From a virus: a stretch of DNA of 26,376 nucleotides. The position numbers and the translations under genes are program-made. The stretch spans positions 1-26,376 of IMG/VR virus record IMGVR_UViG_3300042474_001676. One strand, given 5' to 3'. This document shows positions 877-19,461 of the stretch, one piece after another; position 1 is the first letter of the stretch, and every line of letters begins with the position of its first letter. The notes below the pieces were generated by a model. That model did no database searches. It was given only the letters and a program-made list of their open reading frames with translations, and was not told where the DNA came from.

Positions 877-911
877 TTGGACGTTGGATGTTGGACGTTG
901 GACGTTGGACG
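877..911 (-). repeat. Heptamer array A1 (five CGTCCAA units)
   Basis: Five head-to-tail 7-bp units, with one variant unit (CATCCAA). The array lies in the gap between the stop of the gp37-like gene (919) and the start of the tail gene (850). The minus-strand flank GAGCGAA precedes the array, as in two other copies in this window. It occupies half of the leader of the tail gene. Confidence 0.95.
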
Positions 912-918
912 TTCGCTC

Positions 919-1639: not shown

Positions 1640-2254
1640 TCAGTTGGCCCCTCCCGCGCTGCGCGTCAGCAGGTAATCCACGTAGTTCCGCACGCCGAGC
1701 TTCGCCGCGACGCCGTATTCGTCGTCCGTGGGAATCAGCGTGCGGTCCTGCTTTTGAAAAACGGAACGCACGAGCATGTAGAGCCACGTCACCGAAGCGC
1801 CCTTGCCGGTGCCCTCGCGCCGCCCGAGCAGCGCGGTGGCCTTGCCCTTCGGCTGCGCGAAGAAAAGCCCCTGCATCCGGTAGGCGCGCTGATTGTAGGA
1901 CGAGGAGTGAATCGGAATGGTGAGCCATTTCTTTCCGCCGAGCGGAACGATCGTCACATCGTGCGCCGCGCGCCCGATGCCCTGCTGTCGGATGGTGATT
2001 GTCGCCGCCGCCGCAGTGTGCGTCTCCGTCGTTTTCTCCGCGGCCTGCGCCCAATGCCCGGAAGGCGTCGCGCCGAGCCGCTCCGCCGTGGCGTGCCGCG
2101 TGGCCGCGATGTGGATGAGATGATTCCGCGTGAGCCCGAGGCACTCGCGGCCCACCGCCTCGTGCATTCCAGCGCGGTCGCCCAGCCCGGCGATGAGCTG
2201 CGCATACCGGGCGGAGATTCCGTCCGTCACTTCGATGGTGAGCGCGGCGCTCAT
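1640..2254 (-). CDS. Phage virion morphogenesis protein (Mu gpG-like)
   Basis: 204 aa, MSAALTIEVTDGISARYAQL. Its start overlaps the stop of the gpF-like gene by ATGA, so the two are probably translationally coupled. The N-terminal half (about 1-60, with RNHLIHIAATRHATAERLG) and the later GLFFAQPKGKATALLGRREG segment fit the virion morphogenesis/tail-completion family that follows gpF in Mu-like phages. The family acts in head completion or head-tail joining. No catalytic motif is expected. Identification is by sequence character and order. Confidence 0.7.
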   Translation of the reverse strand: MSAALTIEVTDGISARYAQLIAGLGDRAGMHEAVGRECLGLTRNHLIHIAATRHATAERLGATPSGHWAQAAEKTTETHTAAAATITIRQQGIGRAAHDVTIVPLGGKKWLTIPIHSSSYNQRAYRMQGLFFAQPKGKATALLGRREGTGKGASVTWLYMLVRSVFQKQDRTLIPTDDEYGVAAKLGVRNYVDYLLTRSAGGAN

Positions 2255-3174
2255 AGCCCGGCAGCCCTCCGCAGATAGTCCGCATTCGATGATCCCTTGA
2301 GCGCGAGCAAGTCGTCCTTCAGTTCCGTGTCGAGGTCCGCGCGAACGGCGCGCAGGAAATCCGGGTCAAACTTCGCCGCCGCCTTCACGCCCTCGTTCAT
2401 GCTGGCCCGGCTGCCCTGGATGTCCGTGTCCGCGTTGATGACGCCGAGAGCGATGCACTCCGCGCGCGGCACTTCGCGCCAGCCGAATCCGCTGTTGAAC
2501 GCGAAGGGTGGGAAGGACGCATCGAGCGCGTCGTCAAACTCCCCCGAGTTGCCGAGCGAATCCCACACGGGCGAATCCTTGCGCGCAATCATGCGGCCGT
2601 CGAAAAAGTCGCCGCCGATTTTCTCCCAGCGGTCAGGCCACGACTGGCCGGGGTCGTCCACCATGCCGTCCTTCGTGCGGCGCAGGCCGCGCGGCACCGC
2701 GCGCGGGTAGATGCGCACCAGCTCGTACGCCGGGAACGCGAAGAGCGCGTAGTCGCTCTGTCCGCTCTCACGGAAAGCCGCGTTCGCCACCTGCCGCATG
2801 TTCGTTTGCAGCACGAGATCCACGCGGCCATTGCTCGCGAGGTCTTGCAAAGAGCCAGCGGTGACGGGTTCGCCTGGCATATCCGGGAAGCCGCCGCGCT
2901 CGGCATCGTAGCCGAGGCCGTCGAGCATGTCCTGAATCTTCGCCCGCGCCGTCGCGCCGTTCGTGTTGCCGTCGAGCAGGTCTGCAAGCTGCGTGCGGTA
3001 GCCTTGCAGCACCTCTGCCTTCGCCGTGCGTGCCGAAAAAAGCGAACGCGCCCGCAGGTCCGCCCCCCATTGCTCGCGAATCTCGCGCGAGGAAAGATGC
3101 GTGGGCAGCAGCCCCTTGGCATCGAGCATGTCGAGCGCCTGTTCCCAAGGCAGCGGTGTGTCGAAGGCGATCAT
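2251..3174 (-). CDS. gpF-like minor head protein (head morphogenesis)
   Basis: 307 aa from the ATG at 3174 (MIAFDTPLPWEQALDMLDAK). It is a portal-associated minor capsid protein of the phage Mu gpF/SPP1 gp7 type. Features seen are an N-terminal helical part and then LVLQTNMRQVANAAFRESGQ near residue 125, the typical 'N-x-x-x-A' helix of this family. Late Trp/Phe-rich segments follow. I chose 3174 because it overlaps the upstream small ORF by ATGA and has GGAAGGGGG nine bases upstream. The same frame stays open upstream through a heptamer array to a GTG at 3243. That extension would add an RPTSNVQ repeat peptide and is probably not translated from there. Confidence 0.75.
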   Translation of the reverse strand: MIAFDTPLPWEQALDMLDAKGLLPTHLSSREIREQWGADLRARSLFSARTAKAEVLQGYRTQLADLLDGNTNGATARAKIQDMLDGLGYDAERGGFPDMPGEPVTAGSLQDLASNGRVDLVLQTNMRQVANAAFRESGQSDYALFAFPAYELVRIYPRAVPRGLRRTKDGMVDDPGQSWPDRWEKIGGDFFDGRMIARKDSPVWDSLGNSGEFDDALDASFPPFAFNSGFGWREVPRAECIALGVINADTDIQGSRASMNEGVKAAAKFDPDFLRAVRADLDTELKDDLLALKGSSNADYLRRAAGL

Positions 3175-3335
3175 TCGCAGCATCCCCCTTCCGACATTGG
3201 ACGTTGGACGTTGGACGTTGGACGTTGGACGTTCCTGCGGCACCGCCCATCCGTGTCGCTCTGCGGCTCGCGCAGCCTCGCCTTCTCCCGCTTCGCCCGC
3301 ACCGTCTTCGTAAATTTGGCAGCGCCCTTGCTCAT
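3171..3335 (-). CDS. Small coupled ORF whose C-terminus is a heptamer array
   Basis: 54 codons, beginning MSKGAAKFTKTVRAKREKAR, very basic. It begins with an ATGA overlap on the stop of the 152-aa gene (3332) and ends with a TGA that overlaps the ATG of the gpF-like gene. It therefore bridges the two genes exactly. Residues about 35-47 (NVQRPTSNVQRP) are encoded by the heptamer array at 3197-3231. The double ATGA coupling argues that it is translated. Its product has no recognisable family. Losing or gaining a single 7-bp unit would shift its frame and uncouple the downstream gene. Confidence 0.55.
   Translation of the reverse strand: MSKGAAKFTKTVRAKREKARLREPQSDTDGRCRRNVQRPTSNVQRPMSEGGCCE
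3197..3231 (-). repeat. Heptamer array A2 (five CGTCCAA units)
   Basis: Five perfect 7-bp units lying wholly inside the 54-codon ORF at 3171-3335, on its coding strand. They are flanked by GAA on the 5' side and TGTCGG on the 3' side. Confidence 0.97.
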
Positions 3336-3790
3336 AGCCCTCCCATCCCGCCGCGCGTGAAGCGGCGTGTCGTGTCCGGCTCCACCGTGCGGATAGACGG
3401 CTGCGAGGGGTTCATCTCGCTGCTTCCGTCCGCGTCGTCCGGCGTTTCAAATCTCAGCTTCGCATCCATGATGCGGTTCAGGTAGCTCCGATCCTCGTCG
3501 GCCTGCTTCTGCTCGGCGGCAGTCATCTCCATGTCGAGATGGTCCTTCACCCGGCGCACGACCATGCGAGTGCCGAGGCCGAGCAGGCTGTTGGGAATCT
3601 TCGCCGTGTTGCTGTCGAGCGCATTGCCCGTGCTCACCGCGGAGCGCAGCATGGCCGTCACGTCCGCAATCATCTGCGGCAGCGGGTCCGCCTGGGCATC
3701 CGCATCGGCCCGCCCCTGCACGGCATCGACCAGCGCGGAGATTTTCCCCGTGCGAACAATGGTCTCAGTGATGGCGGTCCAGTTTGGCAT
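3332..3790 (-). CDS. Probable head-tail connector (position of Mu gp36)
   Basis: 152 aa, MPNWTAITETIVRTGKISAL. It lies directly after the major capsid gene on the minus strand, where Mu-like phages carry the small connector protein gp36. It is acidic and mostly helical. RMVVRRVKDHLDMEMTAAEQ and the following KQADEDRSYLNRIMDAKLRF suggest a helical connector core, with a Pro/Arg-rich disordered tail from about residue 120. I do not recognise a specific motif, so the role comes from position. The first base of a heptamer array touches its start codon (3788-3790). Confidence 0.5.
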   Translation of the reverse strand: MPNWTAITETIVRTGKISALVDAVQGRADADAQADPLPQMIADVTAMLRSAVSTGNALDSNTAKIPNSLLGLGTRMVVRRVKDHLDMEMTAAEQKQADEDRSYLNRIMDAKLRFETPDDADGSSEMNPSQPSIRTVEPDTTRRFTRGGMGGL

Positions 3791-3824
3791 TGGATGTTGA
3801 GCGTTGGACGTTGGACGTTGGACG
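3790..3824 (-). repeat. Heptamer array A3 (five units, two variant)
   Basis: Three perfect CGTCCAA units followed by CGCTCAA and CATCCAA on the minus strand. The array ends at the start codon of the 152-aa connector gene. It forms the 35 bp immediately upstream of that start and replaces any ribosome binding site. Confidence 0.93.
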
Positions 3825-3841
3825 TTCGTTCCGGCTCACTT

Positions 3842-5790: not shown

Positions 5791-6429
5791 TTAGGCTTTG
5801 GCGGTTTGCTTCAGCAGCAGCGCGAGGTCTGCGTGTTCCTTCAGGGTTTCCTTCCAGGCACGATCCCAGTTGCCGTCTGCATTCTTGGTCATGCGCTCGT
5901 TTGCCAGTTCCACGACCTTGCCGGCCGCGTCGCTGGTTTCCTTGCGCTGTCCGAGATTCTTGGTGCGCGCTTCCGTGTGGATGGCGGGCTTTGCGTTCGC
6001 GAGTTCCACGCTCTTGGCGTCGAATGCGGTCGTGAGTTCGTTCGCCCACGGCTCGCGCTGGGCTTCCGTGATGCGCCCGTCGCGGATGGCGTTTGCGAGC
6101 AGTAGCTCGATGCGCGCCTTGCGCTCGGCGGCGAATGCGGCGCGCTCATTGGCGAGTTCTGCCCCGGCCTTTTCAGCCTCGGCCTTCTTGGCGGCGAGCT
6201 GCGTGTTCACCGCGGCGGTCGCGGCGGTCGCGGCGGCGAGCGATGCGGCGGCGGCGTCCTTCGCGGCCTTCTCGTTCGCGAGTTGCGTTTCAAGTTCTGC
6301 CTTTGCGGCCTTCTCGTTGGCGAGCGCGGGGCCGGTTTCTTTCAGCGAGGTAATCGCCGTGTTGATGGTTTCAGGCGTTGCCGTCTCGGGGTCGAGGCCG
6401 AGCAGCGCGGCGAGTTCTTTTGGATTCAT
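5791..6429 (-). CDS. Possible internal start for separate scaffold protein
   Basis: An in-frame ATG at 6429 (residue 183 of the protease/scaffold gene) begins MNPKELAALLGLDPETATPE. This is exactly where the protease domain ends and the coiled-coil scaffold begins. In Mu the scaffold gpZ is made from such an internal start in gene I. No good Shine-Dalgarno sequence precedes it (CCGACCAAGAC), but most starts in this window lack one. The proposal rests on domain position only. Confidence 0.35.
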   Translation of the reverse strand: MNPKELAALLGLDPETATPETINTAITSLKETGPALANEKAAKAELETQLANEKAAKDAAAASLAAATAATAAVNTQLAAKKAEAEKAGAELANERAAFAAERKARIELLLANAIRDGRITEAQREPWANELTTAFDAKSVELANAKPAIHTEARTKNLGQRKETSDAAGKVVELANERMTKNADGNWDRAWKETLKEHADLALLLKQTAKA

Positions 6430-6975: not shown

Positions 6976-6981
6976 GGGTTG

Positions 6982-7009
6982 TGATTGGTGACTGGTGACT
7001 AGTGACTGG
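6982..7009 (-). repeat. Heptamer array B1 (four GTCACCA-type units)
   Basis: Four 7-bp units (minus strand: CCAGTCA, CTAGTCA, CCAGTCA, CCAATCA). The variant CTAGTCA supplies the TAG stop codon of the portal gene. The remainder forms the leader of the protease gene. A second copy of the same family precedes the transposase start at 19466. Confidence 0.9.
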
Positions 7010-8645
7010 TGGAAAGCCCCTGCGCCGTGGCGGCGGACAGGATTTCAAAGAGCGCGGTGCTGCTCGCGGCGGAGGTGATGAGCGATTCCACGAAAGCCGG
7101 GTCGCGCAGCTTCGCATCCAGCGCCGCCGCACGCTCCGCGAGGCCTGCGTCGTCGCCGTGCAGGACCGCTGCAAGCGCCGCTTTCAACGGCTGCAAGTCG
7201 CGTGCAAGCGCCGCCGGGAACGAGTGCCGCGCCTTCGCCAGCAGCTTCCCAAGCACCGGAGAGTCCGCCCCGCCGCCGCGTTCATTCGCCAGCGCATCCG
7301 CCTCCTCCTGCTTCGCCTTTTCCTCCTGCTTCTTCGCCGCGTCCGCCGCGTCCGCCGCGGTTCCATCCTTCGGCTCCGGCTTGCCGAGCAGTTCCTCGCC
7401 TTCATCCGGCGTCACCAGCCCGAGCCGCTCGCGCGCATCCTTCACTGCGATCGGAATGCCGAGTTCCTTCGCGGCCCTCAGCACCTCGATGTCCAGCCGC
7501 GTGTCGCCATCGTCCCGCGTCTTGATGGTGATGTAGGCCAGCGGGCGCACGCCTTTGCCGAAATGGTATTCGATGACGAGCCGGGAGAGCTGCATCTGCA
7601 TCGTCTCCGCAAGCCATGCGGCGTCATCCTGCTCGAGCAGTTCCCCTTCGCCGCCTTGCACGCTCGCGCCTTGCCCCTCGCCGTTGCCGGCGCTCATGGT
7701 CGAAAGGTCCGCACCGCGCCAGAGGATCGCGATGGCGCGGTCCATCCGCTCGATGAGCGGCTCAAAGGGATTTTGCCCGCCGCCTGCGGAGGCTTCCACG
7801 AGCGAGATTTCCGCGCCCTGGTTCACCACGGCCGCCCAGTCGTTCATGAATGCGCCCACGGCGCTCTCCATCGCATTCCACTCCGCGCTGCCGGGTGTGG
7901 CGGGCGTCTTGCCGAGCAGGCCGGGCATCCCGAATTTTTCCGTGTAGCTCAGCCAGTCTTGCAGCGGCAAACGCTTGTAAAGGTAGGCCACCGCGCAGGC
8001 TTCCATGATGCCGTCGCCGACCGTCACGAGCCATTGCTCGGCGCTCATGTCCTTGCCTTCCGTGGCCGTGTCTTGGTCGAGGAAGCGCAGCTTGCCGGTG
8101 CGGTTCTCAAAGAACCAGAGCGGGCAGAAGCGCAGCTCGGCGGTGAGCCCGCCATCCTCCGCGCCGTCGCCGGGCTTCATCACGATCTCATGCACCGCAT
8201 ACTTTTTGCCGATGGCATCCGCCATCTGCCGCGCGAGGAGTGCGAAGCCGCCGCGCTGATTTTCATCGAGCGCATTGCAGGCGGTGACGTTGCCATAGAA
8301 ATACTCGAGCACCTCCTTGTGCTGCTCCGCCGTGGCAGCGAGCTCCTTGTCTTCGCCGACATCCGCGGTGAGAATCTCGAAGCCGTAGCGCGCGACGGCG
8401 GAGATGCGTTTGCGGCGGCAGGCCGCAATCTTGTCGTCGCGCCGCTCGATGGCATCCGCGAGCCGGGCGAACTGCCCGAGGTAGCCCTGCGCGAAAAGGT
8501 CGAGCGAGGAAGTGAGGTAGGCGGGCGTGAGCTGCGCGATCGGATTGTAGCGTGCCTGGAGCGAACGCTGCACGCGCTGCGGGGTGATTTGCGTCGCCGT
8601 CTGTGTGGCGGGTGCGAGTGCCTTGGGTTTGCGGGATGTCTTCAA
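6999..8645 (-). CDS. Portal protein, DUF935 (Mu gp29-like)
   Basis: 548 aa. The start is TTG at 8645, overlapping the terminase stop by TTGA. The N-terminus is basic. The core, residues about 60-400, has the DUF935 look: FARLADAIERRDDKIAACRR, then RRKRISAVARYGFEIL, KYAVHEIVMKPG, LRFCPLWFFENRTGKLRFL, LLGKTPATPGSAEWNAMESA, and ILWRGADLSTMSAGNGEGQG. The C-terminal part (about 430-548) is Ala-rich helical. A GCCGCGTCC 9-bp tandem lies in its coding sequence near 7340. The protein forms the dodecameric DNA channel at the head vertex. The last residues (LSTSH) and the stop are encoded by heptamer array B1. Confidence 0.88.
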   Translation of the reverse strand: MKTSRKPKALAPATQTATQITPQRVQRSLQARYNPIAQLTPAYLTSSLDLFAQGYLGQFARLADAIERRDDKIAACRRKRISAVARYGFEILTADVGEDKELAATAEQHKEVLEYFYGNVTACNALDENQRGGFALLARQMADAIGKKYAVHEIVMKPGDGAEDGGLTAELRFCPLWFFENRTGKLRFLDQDTATEGKDMSAEQWLVTVGDGIMEACAVAYLYKRLPLQDWLSYTEKFGMPGLLGKTPATPGSAEWNAMESAVGAFMNDWAAVVNQGAEISLVEASAGGGQNPFEPLIERMDRAIAILWRGADLSTMSAGNGEGQGASVQGGEGELLEQDDAAWLAETMQMQLSRLVIEYHFGKGVRPLAYITIKTRDDGDTRLDIEVLRAAKELGIPIAVKDARERLGLVTPDEGEELLGKPEPKDGTAADAADAAKKQEEKAKQEEADALANERGGGADSPVLGKLLAKARHSFPAALARDLQPLKAALAAVLHGDDAGLAERAAALDAKLRDPAFVESLITSAASSTALFEILSAATAQGLSTSH

Positions 8646-10159
8646 ACGAGTGCCCTCCGTTTCTTAAATTTGCCCGCTGCGCGCTCGACCGCCTGGTAAT
8701 GGAACGGCCCGCTGTGATTTCCCGCGGCGCGGATGGCGAGCGCGATGGCCCAGAATCGATCCGCGTGGTCTTTCACGTCGCGGGCGGCGGCGATGCTCAC
8801 GCGCCCGCCGGGGCTGGTGATTTTCTCCGGCTTGCGCAGATCGTCGCGCAGCGCGGGGTCGGGCGTGATTTCGATGGTCTTGTCCTCAAACTCCGCCACG
8901 AGGTTTGTCGCCATGATTTCCGTCACCTTCGCCGTGGGTGCCTTGCGTCCTTCGCTGCGAATCCGGTCGGTGACGGGTTCCGTGCTCGAGAAGTTCACGC
9001 CTTCGATGCGGTCGGTGCCGAACTTTTCCTCGGCCATTTCAAAAAGCCCGAGACCGTTGCCCGTCATGTCGAAGCACGCGCGGCGGAATTTCGGGAGCAG
9101 GCCGAGCCGCTCGAATTCGTCGAACTGCTGCTTGATGCGCATCTCCTGCATGGTGAGCAGGCCGATCATGCGCTTCACGCGGCCCACCTTTTCAAAGACC
9201 GCCTGCACGGAGAGGTCGCCGACGCGGGCGAAGTCCTGCCCCACGTAGATGTCGCCCTCGGCGCGGTGCATCCGTTGCAGGCTGTTCACGCTCCACTCCT
9301 GCTCGTCAATCGGGATCATCGCGCGCTCGGCGGCGCTGATGAGTTCCTGCGTGAGCAGCGCGGCGTTCTCATCCGCAAAGGTGCATTCGTAGTTTTGATC
9401 GTAGGCCCGCTTGTCAGCCGACTGCCGGCGCGCTTCGTCCGGCGTGATTTCTTTCCCGCTGATGATGCTGTGAATCCGCAGCGCACCCATCGCGTGGGCA
9501 TCCGACCGGCGCATCCGGTTGTAGGGAATATCCCCGCGCGAGACGAGCTGATAGAACATGTTCCGCTTCCCGTTGCCGGTGCTGGAAATGCGGCAGAGGA
9601 AATCCGGGTTGCTCGAAATGATGGGCTCAGCCGCTTCCCAAATCGCTTGCGAGTCTTCATGGAATGCGAATTCGTCGAGGATGAGGTCGCCGGAAAAGCC
9701 GCGCGCCGTGCGGGGATTCGCCGCGAGCACCTTGATGCGCCCGGTGATTCCGCCGACCGTGATCTTAATCTCGAAGCGCATCGCCTCGTATTTCAGATCC
9801 TCGCTCAAATCCTGACGCCCGTTCAGCTCATCCGCATTGCTCTCCGTCTCGACTCCCTCAATCGCGACGCCGAGCGCACGGCAAATCTCTTCGGCCTTGA
9901 TCACAAACTCCGCCCCGTTGTCGCGGGAGTTGGAAAGCACCGTCACAAGCCGCCCAGGGAACCGCAGCAGCCGATCCACGGCCCACGCCGCGAGCGTGTA
10001 GCTCTTCCCGATTTGCCGGGACCAGTGCAGGATCACAGTCTTGCTCTCATGGTCGCGGAAAATCGGCTCCTGATACGCACGGAACTTGATGAGTCCGATG
10101 GCGCCCTCCGCCTTGGACGTTGGACGTTGGACGTTGGACGTTGGACGTTTCGTCTTCAC
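8642..10159 (-). CDS. Terminase large subunit (Mu gp28-like)
   Basis: 505 aa ATPase/nuclease that packages DNA. Walker A is WSRQIGKSYT (residues about 47-56), Walker B is DLILDEFAF (about 157-165), and the coupling segment RISSTGNGKRNMFYQ follows. The RNase H-like nuclease has acidic positions in GQDFARVGDLS, CFDMTGNGLG and DVKDHADRFW. I chose the GTG at 10159. It overlaps the upstream stop by GTGA and has GGAGGTGAAG just before it, one of the few clear Shine-Dalgarno sequences here. The frame remains open further upstream, but that part is a shadow of the preceding gene. Residues 5-15 (RPTSNVQRPTS) are encoded by heptamer array A4. Confidence 0.92.
   Translation of the reverse strand: MKTKRPTSNVQRPTSKAEGAIGLIKFRAYQEPIFRDHESKTVILHWSRQIGKSYTLAAWAVDRLLRFPGRLVTVLSNSRDNGAEFVIKAEEICRALGVAIEGVETESNADELNGRQDLSEDLKYEAMRFEIKITVGGITGRIKVLAANPRTARGFSGDLILDEFAFHEDSQAIWEAAEPIISSNPDFLCRISSTGNGKRNMFYQLVSRGDIPYNRMRRSDAHAMGALRIHSIISGKEITPDEARRQSADKRAYDQNYECTFADENAALLTQELISAAERAMIPIDEQEWSVNSLQRMHRAEGDIYVGQDFARVGDLSVQAVFEKVGRVKRMIGLLTMQEMRIKQQFDEFERLGLLPKFRRACFDMTGNGLGLFEMAEEKFGTDRIEGVNFSSTEPVTDRIRSEGRKAPTAKVTEIMATNLVAEFEDKTIEITPDPALRDDLRKPEKITSPGGRVSIAAARDVKDHADRFWAIALAIRAAGNHSGPFHYQAVERAAGKFKKRRALV
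10113..10147 (-). repeat. Heptamer array A4 (five CGTCCAA units) in the terminase 5' end
   Basis: Five perfect units, in the coding strand of the large terminase starting at its fifth codon. They encode RPTSNVQRPTS followed by KAEGAIG. The downstream residues (FRAYQEPIFRDHESKTVILH) are where a normal terminase N-terminus would begin. Confidence 0.97.
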
Positions 10160-11009: not shown

Positions 11010-11245
11010 CCCAGCACCTCCAGTTTGCCGTCCGCCGTGAATGTCCAGACCGTGCCGCGCAGGCCCGTGTCCGTGCCCTTCGCCATTGGTGGCTCCATGC
11101 GGGAGAGCTGCGAGAGCGTGGCGTTGATGTCCGCATCCGTCTCGGCCTTGCCCGTGAAATGCGGAACCTCGGCGGCGATGAGTGGCACCGTGATCGCGCG
11201 GCGCGCGGCGACCAGGACGTGAAGGATTGCCAGTGGAAGGGTCAT
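11006..11245 (-). CDS. Small protein of unknown function
   Basis: 79 aa, MTLPLAILHVLVAARRAITV. It has ATGA overlaps at both ends. The sequence suggests an N-terminal helix pair, a middle helix (ADINATLSQLSRMEP) and a C-terminal beta hairpin (GTVWTFTADGKLEVLG). This pattern is compatible with a small winged-helix fold, but no family is recognised. Its place between a membrane/coiled-coil gene and the terminase genes matches the small unknowns of Mu-like packaging regions. Confidence 0.6.
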   Translation of the reverse strand: MTLPLAILHVLVAARRAITVPLIAAEVPHFTGKAETDADINATLSQLSRMEPPMAKGTDTGLRGTVWTFTADGKLEVLG

Positions 11246-12015
11246 TTCGCATGACGAATAATGTTAGGCAGGTCGCGCTGGAACTGCTCGAAGGCGGCGG
11301 CGGTCTTGCCCTCGATGCCTGCGATGCGGTCCAGCCGTTCGGTGATCTCCGAGAGGCGCGAAGCCCCGGCGTCCTTCAGCTCCTTGAACATGGAGAGAAG
11401 CTCCGAGCGCGGGATGACGTGCTCGCGCAGCCTTTTGAGCTCCTTGTCGGTCTTGTCCGCGAGGTCTGTGAGCGCGCCGACCGTGGCGTATTCCCTCGCC
11501 TGCGCGACCATGATGGGCTGGCCGGTGATGCTCATCGTGCCGGTCTCTTTCACGCCCGCCACGTCGCGGATGTATTTTTGCAGGCGGAAGTGCGAGCCGA
11601 TGAGCGCGACGAACACGCCGAGCACGGACAGCGCGGCTGCGCCTTCGGCGATCTGGATGTCGGCGAGCGAGAGCGAACGTCCAACGTCCAACGTCCAACC
11701 GCGTAAAGCCGCGGGGGACGCGGCCACGCGGCCTTTACGCGGTCCAACGTCCAAAGAAAGAGGAGGCATCGCCCGCTCCGGTTCCCCAACCGGAGCGGGC
11801 ACCCTGTCCCCTGCTGCTGCCGTTCGCACCGGCAGCACCATGAAGGTGATCAAAATTGCGCCGCAAAGCAGCGAAGAAGCGAAGGCGGGCGCGGTGGACG
11901 GCGCGGGGGCCTGAGCTTTCGGCTCATGACATGGGTGCGCCTGCGCGTGACTCTCTTTGGGCACAACGCAACTCTTGCCCCCCTTCGCTGCTTCGTTGCT
12001 TCGCGGTAAAGTCAT
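11242..12015 (-). CDS. Membrane/coiled-coil protein, N-terminal half built from repeats
   Basis: 257 aa from ATG 12015, which overlaps the previous stop by ATGA. Residues 115-257 look like a normal small phage protein. They comprise a membrane helix (AAALSVLGVFVALIGSHFRL, about 126-145) and a helical, coiled-coil tail, similar in build to the DUF2730/gp25-type protein near the Mu terminase genes (inference). Residues 1-114 are mostly repeat-derived: a 146-bp inverted-repeat-bounded segment (residues about 4-52), a perfect 13-bp hairpin (residues about 72-81), and a heptamer array split by a palindrome (residues about 88-113). A second hydrophobic stretch (SSLLCGAILITFMVLPV) falls within or next to the first of these. 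All insertions keep the frame open. Confidence 0.6.
   Translation of the reverse strand: MTLPRSNEAAKGGKSCVVPKESHAQAHPCHEPKAQAPAPSTAPAFASSLLCGAILITFMVLPVRTAAAGDRVPAPVGEPERAMPPLSLDVGPRKGRVAASPAALRGWTLDVGRSLSLADIQIAEGAAALSVLGVFVALIGSHFRLQKYIRDVAGVKETGTMSITGQPIMVAQAREYATVGALTDLADKTDKELKRLREHVIPRSELLSMFKELKDAGASRLSEITERLDRIAGIEGKTAAAFEQFQRDLPNIIRHAK
11678..11754 (+). repeat. Heptamer array A5, split by a palindromic element
   Basis: Three CGTCCAA units (11678-11698), then C, then a 42-bp palindromic segment, then GTCCAA and one more CGTCCAA (11742-11754). Removing the 42 bp restores exactly five units. The array is antisense to the gene it lies in, the only one of the six in that orientation. It is preceded by GAGCGAA, as at arrays A1 and A6. 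Confidence 0.93.
11700..11741. mobile_element. 42-bp palindromic element inserted in heptamer array
   Basis: Ends are CGCGTAAAG and CTTTACGCG, a perfect 9-bp inverted repeat. The pairing continues inward through CCGCG/CGCGG with one bulge. It is a multiple of three in length and adds 14 in-frame codons to the host gene. Two diverged relatives with the same CCGCGTAAA start and ACGCGG partner lie at 19395 and 21555. Confidence 0.75.
11771..11800. repeat. Perfect 13-bp hairpin inside coding sequence
   Basis: GCCCGCTCCGGTT pairs perfectly with AACCGGAGCGGGC around a CCCC loop. It encodes part of VPAPVGEPERA (residues about 72-82) of the 257-aa protein. It is about 17 bp from heptamer array A5 and looks like a small palindromic repeat of the REP type. 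Confidence 0.9.
11861..12006. mobile_element. Possible MITE-like segment with 24-bp imperfect inverted ends
   Basis: The first 24 bp (beginning CCGCAAAGCAGCGAAG) match the reverse complement of the last 24 bp at 21 of 24 positions. The segment covers codons about 4-52 of the 257-aa gene. The ends are low-complexity GAAGC-rich sequence, so chance or slippage is possible. No target duplication is evident. Confidence 0.4.
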
Positions 12016-14232: not shown

Positions 14233-14391
14233 GCACCGCGGCGGGCGCGGCGGGCGCGGCGGTGATGCGGGGCTCACTGGCGGGCTATTGCACCGCGGCG
14301 AACGCGGCGGGCGCGGCGATGATGTGCGGCTCGCGCTGCGGGCTATTGCACCGCGGCGGGCGCGGCGGGCGCGGCGAGGATGAGTGGCTTA
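14233..14391. repeat. 57/58-bp GC-rich direct repeats, 2.7 copies
   Basis: Copies begin with GCACCGCGGCG at 14233, 14290 and 14348, and the first two end with GCGGGCTATT. Each copy contains its own GCGGCGGGC 9-bp tandem. The block fills the gap between the Cys-rich gene (stop 14389) and the lysis operon and holds no convincing gene. Confidence 0.9.
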
Positions 14392-14955
14392 GAATGGGCA
14401 GTCCGCCGTCTCCACCTCCGCGTCGGCCTCCGCGTCCGCACTGAGCACTGAGCACTGAGCACTTTCCCCCTGCGTGGCGCGCACGGCTCCCGTGCGCATC
14501 GCCGCCGCGCGCACGTCGCGCATCTGCCCGGCATCCAGCTCGTGCAGGAATGGCAGCCCAGGCAGGCCGCACACTTTCGCGGCGATGCGGCGCAGGTAAA
14601 TCTCATCCATGCCATGCCCCTTGCACCGCTTGCCGAGGGAATACAGCAGCCGCCGGGCGTCGCCGGAGCGCATCCGCAATCCCCACTTGATGCCCTCGCA
14701 GTGGATCTCCTCCAGCCGGGCCATGAATCGCTCGTAGTCGCGGCCGTCGTCGCATTCCGTGGTGGATCGGAAGCCGGTGGCGGCTTCGAGGTGATGCTCA
14801 TACCAGCCGCAGAATCGGCACCCCTCCAACTTGCAACGCTTGCGCAGGCACCTTGCACCGTCTTCCGGCGCGAGTCCCTGCGTGCGGCAATGCGCCGCCC
14901 ACGCGAGCGCGAGCGCGGTGCGGAGTTCCGGCTGTTGGGAGCGGGAGAAGCTCAT
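14389..14955 (-). CDS. Cys-rich, possibly GemA-like regulatory protein
   Basis: 188 aa from ATG 14955 (MSFSRSQQPELRTALALAWA), two bases after the previous stop. An N-terminal cysteine cluster (CRTQG...CLRKRCKLEGCRFCGW, residues about 21-48) could bind zinc. Residues about 70-155 (ERFMARLEEIHCEGIKWGLR, then YLRRIAAKVCGLPGLPFLHE and LDAGQMRDVRAAA) recall the C-terminal helical module of GemA/DUF1018 proteins, early modulators in Mu. The match is by eye and moderate. The C-terminus (SAQCSVLSADAEADAEVE) is encoded by heptamer array C and a short GC-rich tandem, so it is probably repeat-derived. Confidence 0.45.
   Translation of the reverse strand: MSFSRSQQPELRTALALAWAAHCRTQGLAPEDGARCLRKRCKLEGCRFCGWYEHHLEAATGFRSTTECDDGRDYERFMARLEEIHCEGIKWGLRMRSGDARRLLYSLGKRCKGHGMDEIYLRRIAAKVCGLPGLPFLHELDAGQMRDVRAAAMRTGAVRATQGESAQCSVLSADAEADAEVETADCPF
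14439..14465 (+). repeat. Heptamer array C (CACTGAG units)
   Basis: Three perfect CACTGAG units followed by a partial unit (CACTTT). The array lies at the 3' end of the Cys-rich gene and is read on the minus strand as SAQCSVLSA. It is the third distinct 7-bp repeat family in the window. Confidence 0.9.
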
Positions 14956-18008: not shown

Positions 18009-18481
18009 GCGAACGTCCAACGTCCAACGTCCAACTTCCAACGTCCAATGCGGAGGCGATTCAGGCGGAGCTTCCGCTCGCGGAGAAGGAGCGGCGCGAC
18101 CGCGAGCAGCTTTTCCTCGATGTCGCGGAATTTGAGGGGATGCTCGCGACCTTTGGCCGGCTCACGGCGCGGCAGATTTGCGCGCACCGCGCCGGGTGGG
18201 ATGACCGCTATGTGCGCAAGCTCGCGGAACGCTCGGCGGGGGTGCTCAGCTTCCCCGGCTCGCAGGGCTACTCGCTGATCGCGGCGGCGGGCGACGATGA
18301 GCTTCGGCACGCGGCAAACGCGATCGCCACGCAGGTGGCTGTGATGCAGGCGAAGCGCGTGCGGTTTGAGAACATCCTCGGCCTGCGGCACGCGGCGCAG
18401 AAGCTCGGGGATGCGCACGCGGCCAGCGATGCCGTGGCGCGGGAGCTTTCGGCGGAATACTTCGCGGAGGGGGCGCAATGA
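18002..18481 (+). CDS. Early protein with repeat-encoded N-terminus
   Basis: 159 aa from ATG 18002. Residues 1-16 (MLSERPTSNVQLPTSN) come from heptamer array A6. The rest is well structured: a helical part with AEFEGMLATFGRLTARQICA and HRAGWDDRYVRKLAERSAGV, which looks like a winged helix, then GVLSFPGSQGYSLIAAAGDD and a C-terminal helix pair. The gene overlaps the HTH gene before it by seven bases and the next gene by ATGA. Small early proteins of this build may control host or phage DNA processes, but no family is recognised. Confidence 0.6.
   Translation: MLSERPTSNVQLPTSNAEAIQAELPLAEKERRDREQLFLDVAEFEGMLATFGRLTARQICAHRAGWDDRYVRKLAERSAGVLSFPGSQGYSLIAAAGDDELRHAANAIATQVAVMQAKRVRFENILGLRHAAQKLGDAHAASDAVARELSAEYFAEGAQ
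18014..18048 (+). repeat. Heptamer array A6 (five units, one variant)
   Basis: Units 1-3 and 5 are CGTCCAA and unit 4 is CTTCCAA. The array is on the coding strand, starting at codon 5 of the gene at 18002. It is preceded by GAGCGAA, the same flank as arrays A1 and A5. Confidence 0.95.
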
Positions 18482-19421: not shown

Positions 19422-19433
19422 CTTCGCCAACCA

Positions 19434-19461
19434 TTCACCACTCACCAGTCACCAGTCACTT
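19434..19461 (+). repeat. Heptamer array B2 (four GTCACCA-type units)
   Basis: Units TTCACCA, CTCACCA, GTCACCA and GTCACTT end five bases before the transposase ATG. This is the same family as array B1 in front of the protease gene. It occupies the place of a ribosome binding site. Confidence 0.85.

Follow-up and report, generated by a model that had tools for sequence, protein, structure and literature searches.

Positions 11676-11754 of the window, the whole stretch of DNA analyzed here (26,376 bp), appear to hold a copy of a dispersed repeat of composite structure, in which a GC-rich hairpin is carried inside a short heptamer array. We put the probability that this repeat has spread as a cassette through heptamer arrays at roughly 60%. 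The window is a linear virus record (IMGVR_UViG_3300042474_001676, here G000) and not a chromosome. It encodes a Mu-type portal, a terminase, a head-maturation protease, a TniB/AAA ATPase and a D-Ala-D-Ala peptidase, a gene set that identifies it as a Mu-like phage or prophage fragment. Relatives of its terminase at 58-62% identity occur in 4 of the 388 genomes sampled from the phylum of a Verrucomicrobiota MAG, and the host is therefore probably a Verrucomicrobiota bacterium, judging from sequence relationship. Among Verrucomicrobiota genomes, three-unit arrays were found in 7 of 289 and in 2 of 323, dense arrays in none, and the hairpin in none of the 388 sampled; the host search in the order of G144 returned no array-bearing genome.

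The composite repeat and its homologs

Direct reading of the sequence bears out the arrangement described in the earlier note: a 42-bp palindrome lies between the C and the G of the fourth CGTCCAA unit, and deletion of 11700-11741 leaves five perfect CGTCCAA units. Five units make up 37 bp including two extra bases, and the entire cassette is about 80 bases long (Table 1). The cut point of the hairpin is the center of the heptamer's ACGT dyad (GGAC^GTT), so that the stem gains one or two base pairs from the array. As DNA, hairpin and array together fold better than each of 200 dinucleotide shuffles (z = -3.05); as RNA, they do so for 199 of 200 (z = -3.73). By inspection, any target-site duplication at the hairpin junction is 1 bp at most, and the candidate of a MITE or DDE-transposed element, which requires a duplication of several bp, was rejected. 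A clean target-site duplication was also looked for by comparing the cassette with the relative L141, and none was seen.

Table 1. Repeats and associated features in the window (all positions are those of the window)
Feature	Positions	Strand	Remarks
Five-unit CGTCCAA-family array	877..913	-	Between two genes
Five-unit array	3197..3233	-	Start of gene 2251-3243
Five-unit array (two variant units)	3790..3826	-	Directly upstream of ATG of gene 3332-3790; absent from L142
Five-unit array	10113..10149	-	N-terminal codons of terminase large-subunit gene; present in L141, not in L142 or other listed relatives
Small gene of no known family	11242..11769	-	N-terminus holds cassette as ~29 in-frame extra codons (MPPLS-LDVGPRKGRVAASPAALRGWTLDVGRS-LSLADIQ); translation compared with L141 homolog MPPLPLAEIHLSEG
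Composite cassette (heptamer array, 42-bp hairpin, heptamer array)	11676..11754	-	Missing in its entirety from L141; shared with G002 as a unit
Three CGTCCAA units and C of the fourth	11678..11699	+	Units 11678-11698, C 11699
42-bp imperfect palindrome, CGCGTAAAG...CTTTACGCG	11700..11741	.	Identical in G002
Remainder of unit 4 and unit 5	11742..11754	+	GTCCAA, 11742-11747; CGTCCAA, 11748-11754
Perfect 13-bp inverted repeat, 4-nt loop	11771..11800	.	Directly upstream of start codon of small gene; conserved in L141
Five-unit array	18012..18048	+	N-terminal codons of gene starting 18002; present in L141

Comparison with related phages shows that array and hairpin are present or absent as a block. 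L141 shares about 95% identity with the window in the block to the left of the site and 93.5% in that to the right, and lacks the array and the hairpin together, a difference of 87 bp (array, hairpin and a few bases) that amounts to 29 codons and keeps the frame. Both are also missing from L142, a more distant relative. Close to the cassette, L141 matches the window at 98-100% identity on the right side and at about 60-80% over some 100 bp on the left; the cassette thus lies on a mosaic seam, and L141 gives an imperfect picture of the ancestral allele. The earlier note had proposed a comparison with related phages, and here the L141 homolog of the small gene is without the insertion, which is accordingly not common to all homologs. 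No Pfam or PHROG match was obtained for the longer reading frame, 11242-12015. CGTCCAA-type heptamers are free of stop codons in every frame, and for this reason the cassette is most likely neutral or tolerated at the small-gene locus.

A second copy of the hairpin was found in an independent metagenome record, IMGVR_UViG_3300042545_001008 (L080, here G002), which derives from an otherwise unrelated phage. All 42 bp are identical, in the same C^G phase and with the same 2:3 split of the units. The three-unit side in G002 consists of TTGGGCG and the two-unit side of TTGGACG, a difference that fits recombination inside an array. In the first 20 kb of G002, the sole strong DNA match to the window covers window positions 11675-11763 (94.4% identity over 89 bp, E = 1e-33); the next match is at 66% identity, followed by bare arrays. 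A relative of the G002 locus giving an empty site was sought, and none was found. An assembly artefact or a local chance palindrome might be suspected of a single record, the more so as repeats are hard to assemble, but recovery of the same 42 bp with the same junctions from an independent metagenome contradicts an artefact and makes this explanation extremely improbable.

Since L141 and L142 lack array and hairpin together and G002 shares both, the simplest reading is that the array-hairpin-array composite, and not the hairpin alone, is the dispersed unit, or else that the hairpin has spread by recombination between arrays; separate insertions into arrays that were already in place fit less well. 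The palindrome had been dated in the earlier note as a later arrival in a pre-existing array. With both parts missing together from L141 and L142 and both shared with G002, nothing shows an array at this site before the hairpin, and that order holds at most for the cassette's ancestor. Reading a nested repeat from a single sequence can therefore be misleading, as what looks like a target array and its insert may have traveled together. The suggestion that the palindrome is mobile stands insofar as it is interspersed and not fixed, being identical in the unrelated G002, and hence not confined to this record, and absent from the ~95% identical L141; it does not stand for an independent element, since no copy outside a heptamer array occurs among the matches listed from the viral and species-representative genome collections. 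The association of the hairpin with arrays is exclusive in the data searched.

Heptamer arrays in the window and in related phages

The earlier note described the array at 11678 correctly but was silent on five further CGTCCAA/TTGGACG arrays in the window (six in all), each of five units when variants are counted. Matches to two units with no more than 2 mismatches number 22, against 0.18 expected. Bare arrays, with no hairpin, are spread across the phage genome and lie mostly where genes begin or adjoin. They are probably recent, as far as sequence comparison goes, because L142 is without them at the sites open to comparison. Three arrays of other heptamers were also noticed in the window (GTGACTG at 6981-7011, GCACTGA at 14438-14463 and ACCAGTC at 19430-19459), as was a 58-bp tandem repeat of 2.7 copies at 14233-14389 with smaller 9-bp repeats within it.

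Exact tandem runs 21 bp or longer were counted in the window together with 79 terminase-related viral loci (1.38 Mb in total, with partly redundant loci). Sixty runs have period 7, compared with 6 of period 6, 14 of period 8, 20 of period 9 and 24 of period 14, and none of period 4, 5, 10, 11 or 13. A control set of 118 viral loci (1.1 Mb) contains no period-7 run. Period 7 is thus over-represented relative to other periods in the relatives, as expected of heptameric simple sequence repeats. The heptamer sequence varies from phage to phage, the period being common to them and the sequence not. No period-7 run was found in 380 kb of sampled stretches from two Verrucomicrobiota genomes with related prophages, as opposed to three in 19 kb of G262, and the arrays are therefore lineage-specific. 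Interrupted arrays in the order of G262 were limited to irregular ones, in G262 alone.

Several other phages have different arrangements of heptamer arrays. Inverted pairs of CGTCCAA arrays about 30-45 bp apart occur at 6297-6391 in L235 and 7167-7249 in L236, where they form long stems followed by TTTT. Small GC-rich hairpins of the GCGCGC..GCGCG type lie between inverted heptamer arrays at 6136-6226 and 7286-7415 in L154 and at 9423-9533 in L151, and GC-rich sequence separates the inverted arrays in all four of these phages. At 4729-4933 in L239, a weak, GC-rich stem-loop of 30 bp breaks into a long direct array of TTGGACT/TTGGACG without disturbing its phase; this 30-bp insert has no copy in 195 genomes.

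The placement of arrays at gene starts or junctions, together with the long stems and succeeding T-rich sequence formed by the inverted arrays of L235 and L236, could be read as the mark of a regulatory or terminator-like element kept by selection at gene boundaries, and translational regulation has been proposed by MacGregor for TAACTGA heptamers (PMC4679880). We regard this as quite unlikely for the composite: its hairpin is located inside an open frame, is not followed by a T run and is missing from phages near-identical or related to this one, and arrays occur in both orientations relative to genes, even inside coding N-termini.

Possible modes of spread

A GTAG-tagged REP is defined by that tetranucleotide at one end of a stem-loop (PMC3733652), and the earlier note had considered the palindrome to be REP/REPIN-like. 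Neither GTAG nor CTAC is found within 11678-11754, and a GTAG-tagged REP was rejected. The nearest CGTC is part of the heptamer and three to four bases from the hairpin stem, and a CGTC-tagged REP was likewise rejected, CGTC not being at the stem end. A REPIN, which comprises two REPs in inverted orientation, was rejected for a single stem-loop. The REP-associated transposase that the earlier note had suggested looking for is missing from the phage records, with no Y1 transposase in G000 or G002. On these grounds the REP/REPIN assignment is not upheld. Phage and plasmid collections gave no match to the hairpin; shorter patterns of the hairpin core gave chance matches alone, in unrelated phages and genomes, and L250-L252 and the terminator-like L253 have just arm 9-mers in common with it.

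The hairpin might still originate in the host as a non-autonomous, REP-like palindrome that a host Y1 (RAYT) transposase moves in single-stranded form and inserts with no target duplication at GGAC^GTT, with the arrays as its preferred target. It is an imperfect GC-rich stem-loop of REP size, it sits at the center of a small dyad, and a target-site duplication is absent. A host RAYT is possible, as Y1_Tnp genes are present in all 8 Verrucomicrobiota genomes tested (2 to 17 matches each). Opitutus terrae, of the Verrucomicrobia, has many GTAG REPs, and members of some REP families have inserted into other palindromes (PMC3733652). Against this, the cassette has no GTAG and its CGTC lies only within the heptamer, not abutting the stem; the palindrome is single and not a REPIN; no copy outside arrays occurs among the matches listed in any collection searched; and the 2:3 split is identical in both copies. 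We therefore consider such an origin unlikely.

Spread of the cassette by copying or recombination through heptamer arrays is the more probable course. The composite would be a five-unit array that carries the 42-bp GC-rich hairpin at the center of one unit's ACGT dyad, and it would have entered the small phage gene at its start, as one piece and in frame, lengthening it by about 29 codons. The arrays may arise or be copied in 7-base steps, by polymerase slippage or a similar process, and as short homologies over phage and probably host genomes they could act as seams for recombination. The hairpin-bearing array would then pass from one co-resident phage to another, or be acquired from the host chromosome, by copying or recombination, for which a dedicated transposase would not be needed. 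The composite is seen in two phages only, which calls for caution with this reading, and their identical phase and split could result from common descent of one transferred segment or from repeated site-specific insertion. As a long shot, the arrays in these phages and hosts might themselves be fixed-size mobile units of five 7-bp units, with copying machinery that imposes the 7-base period and not the sequence, the hairpin version being a loaded variant inserted at the heptamer-center dyad.

Comparison with known repeat systems

Heptameric repeats are reported to be over-represented in many bacteria, and polymerase slippage has been suggested as the cause (PMC4692102), on which there is no agreement. 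Known examples include TAACTGA in Beggiatoaceae, where sets have two to six copies (PMC4679880), GGGAATC in Xanthomonas and Nostoc, and cyanobacterial heptanucleotide repeats (PMC4679880, PMC4692102). The arrays described here resemble them in the 7-bp unit, the short arrays, the location mostly at gene boundaries, the patchy distribution and the stop-free translation, and inverted arrangements of heptamers have been reported in Xanthomonas too (PMC4679880, PMC4692102). Unlike the bacterial repeats, the present ones are found in phage genomes (with probable Verrucomicrobiota hosts) and comprise many different heptamers, and the CGTCCAA arrays of the window are held at five units, one with an embedded hairpin.

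The hairpin shares with REPs and REPINs (PMC3733652, PMC3116915) its short, GC-rich, imperfectly palindromic and interspersed nature and the lack of a visible target duplication, and some REPs are also inserted inside other small repeats (PMC3733652, PMC3116915). It differs in having neither GTAG nor a CGTC abutting the stem, in being single, in its low copy number in the collections searched and in being always flanked by heptamers. The hairpin within an array is an odd local curiosity and not a recognized REP/REPIN mobile element. A minisatellite-bearing MITE of Porphyromonas gingivalis (PMC4596501) likewise joins a tandem array to an inverted repeat within a single mobile unit, with the nesting reversed: its array lies inside the inverted-repeat element, whereas here the palindrome is inside the array. 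Heptameric repeats were already known in bacteria, and the hairpin-bearing composite adds a variation on them. Close phages that gain, lose and share arrays, with the hairpin as a tracer, offer a system in which the spread of arrays between genomes can be followed.
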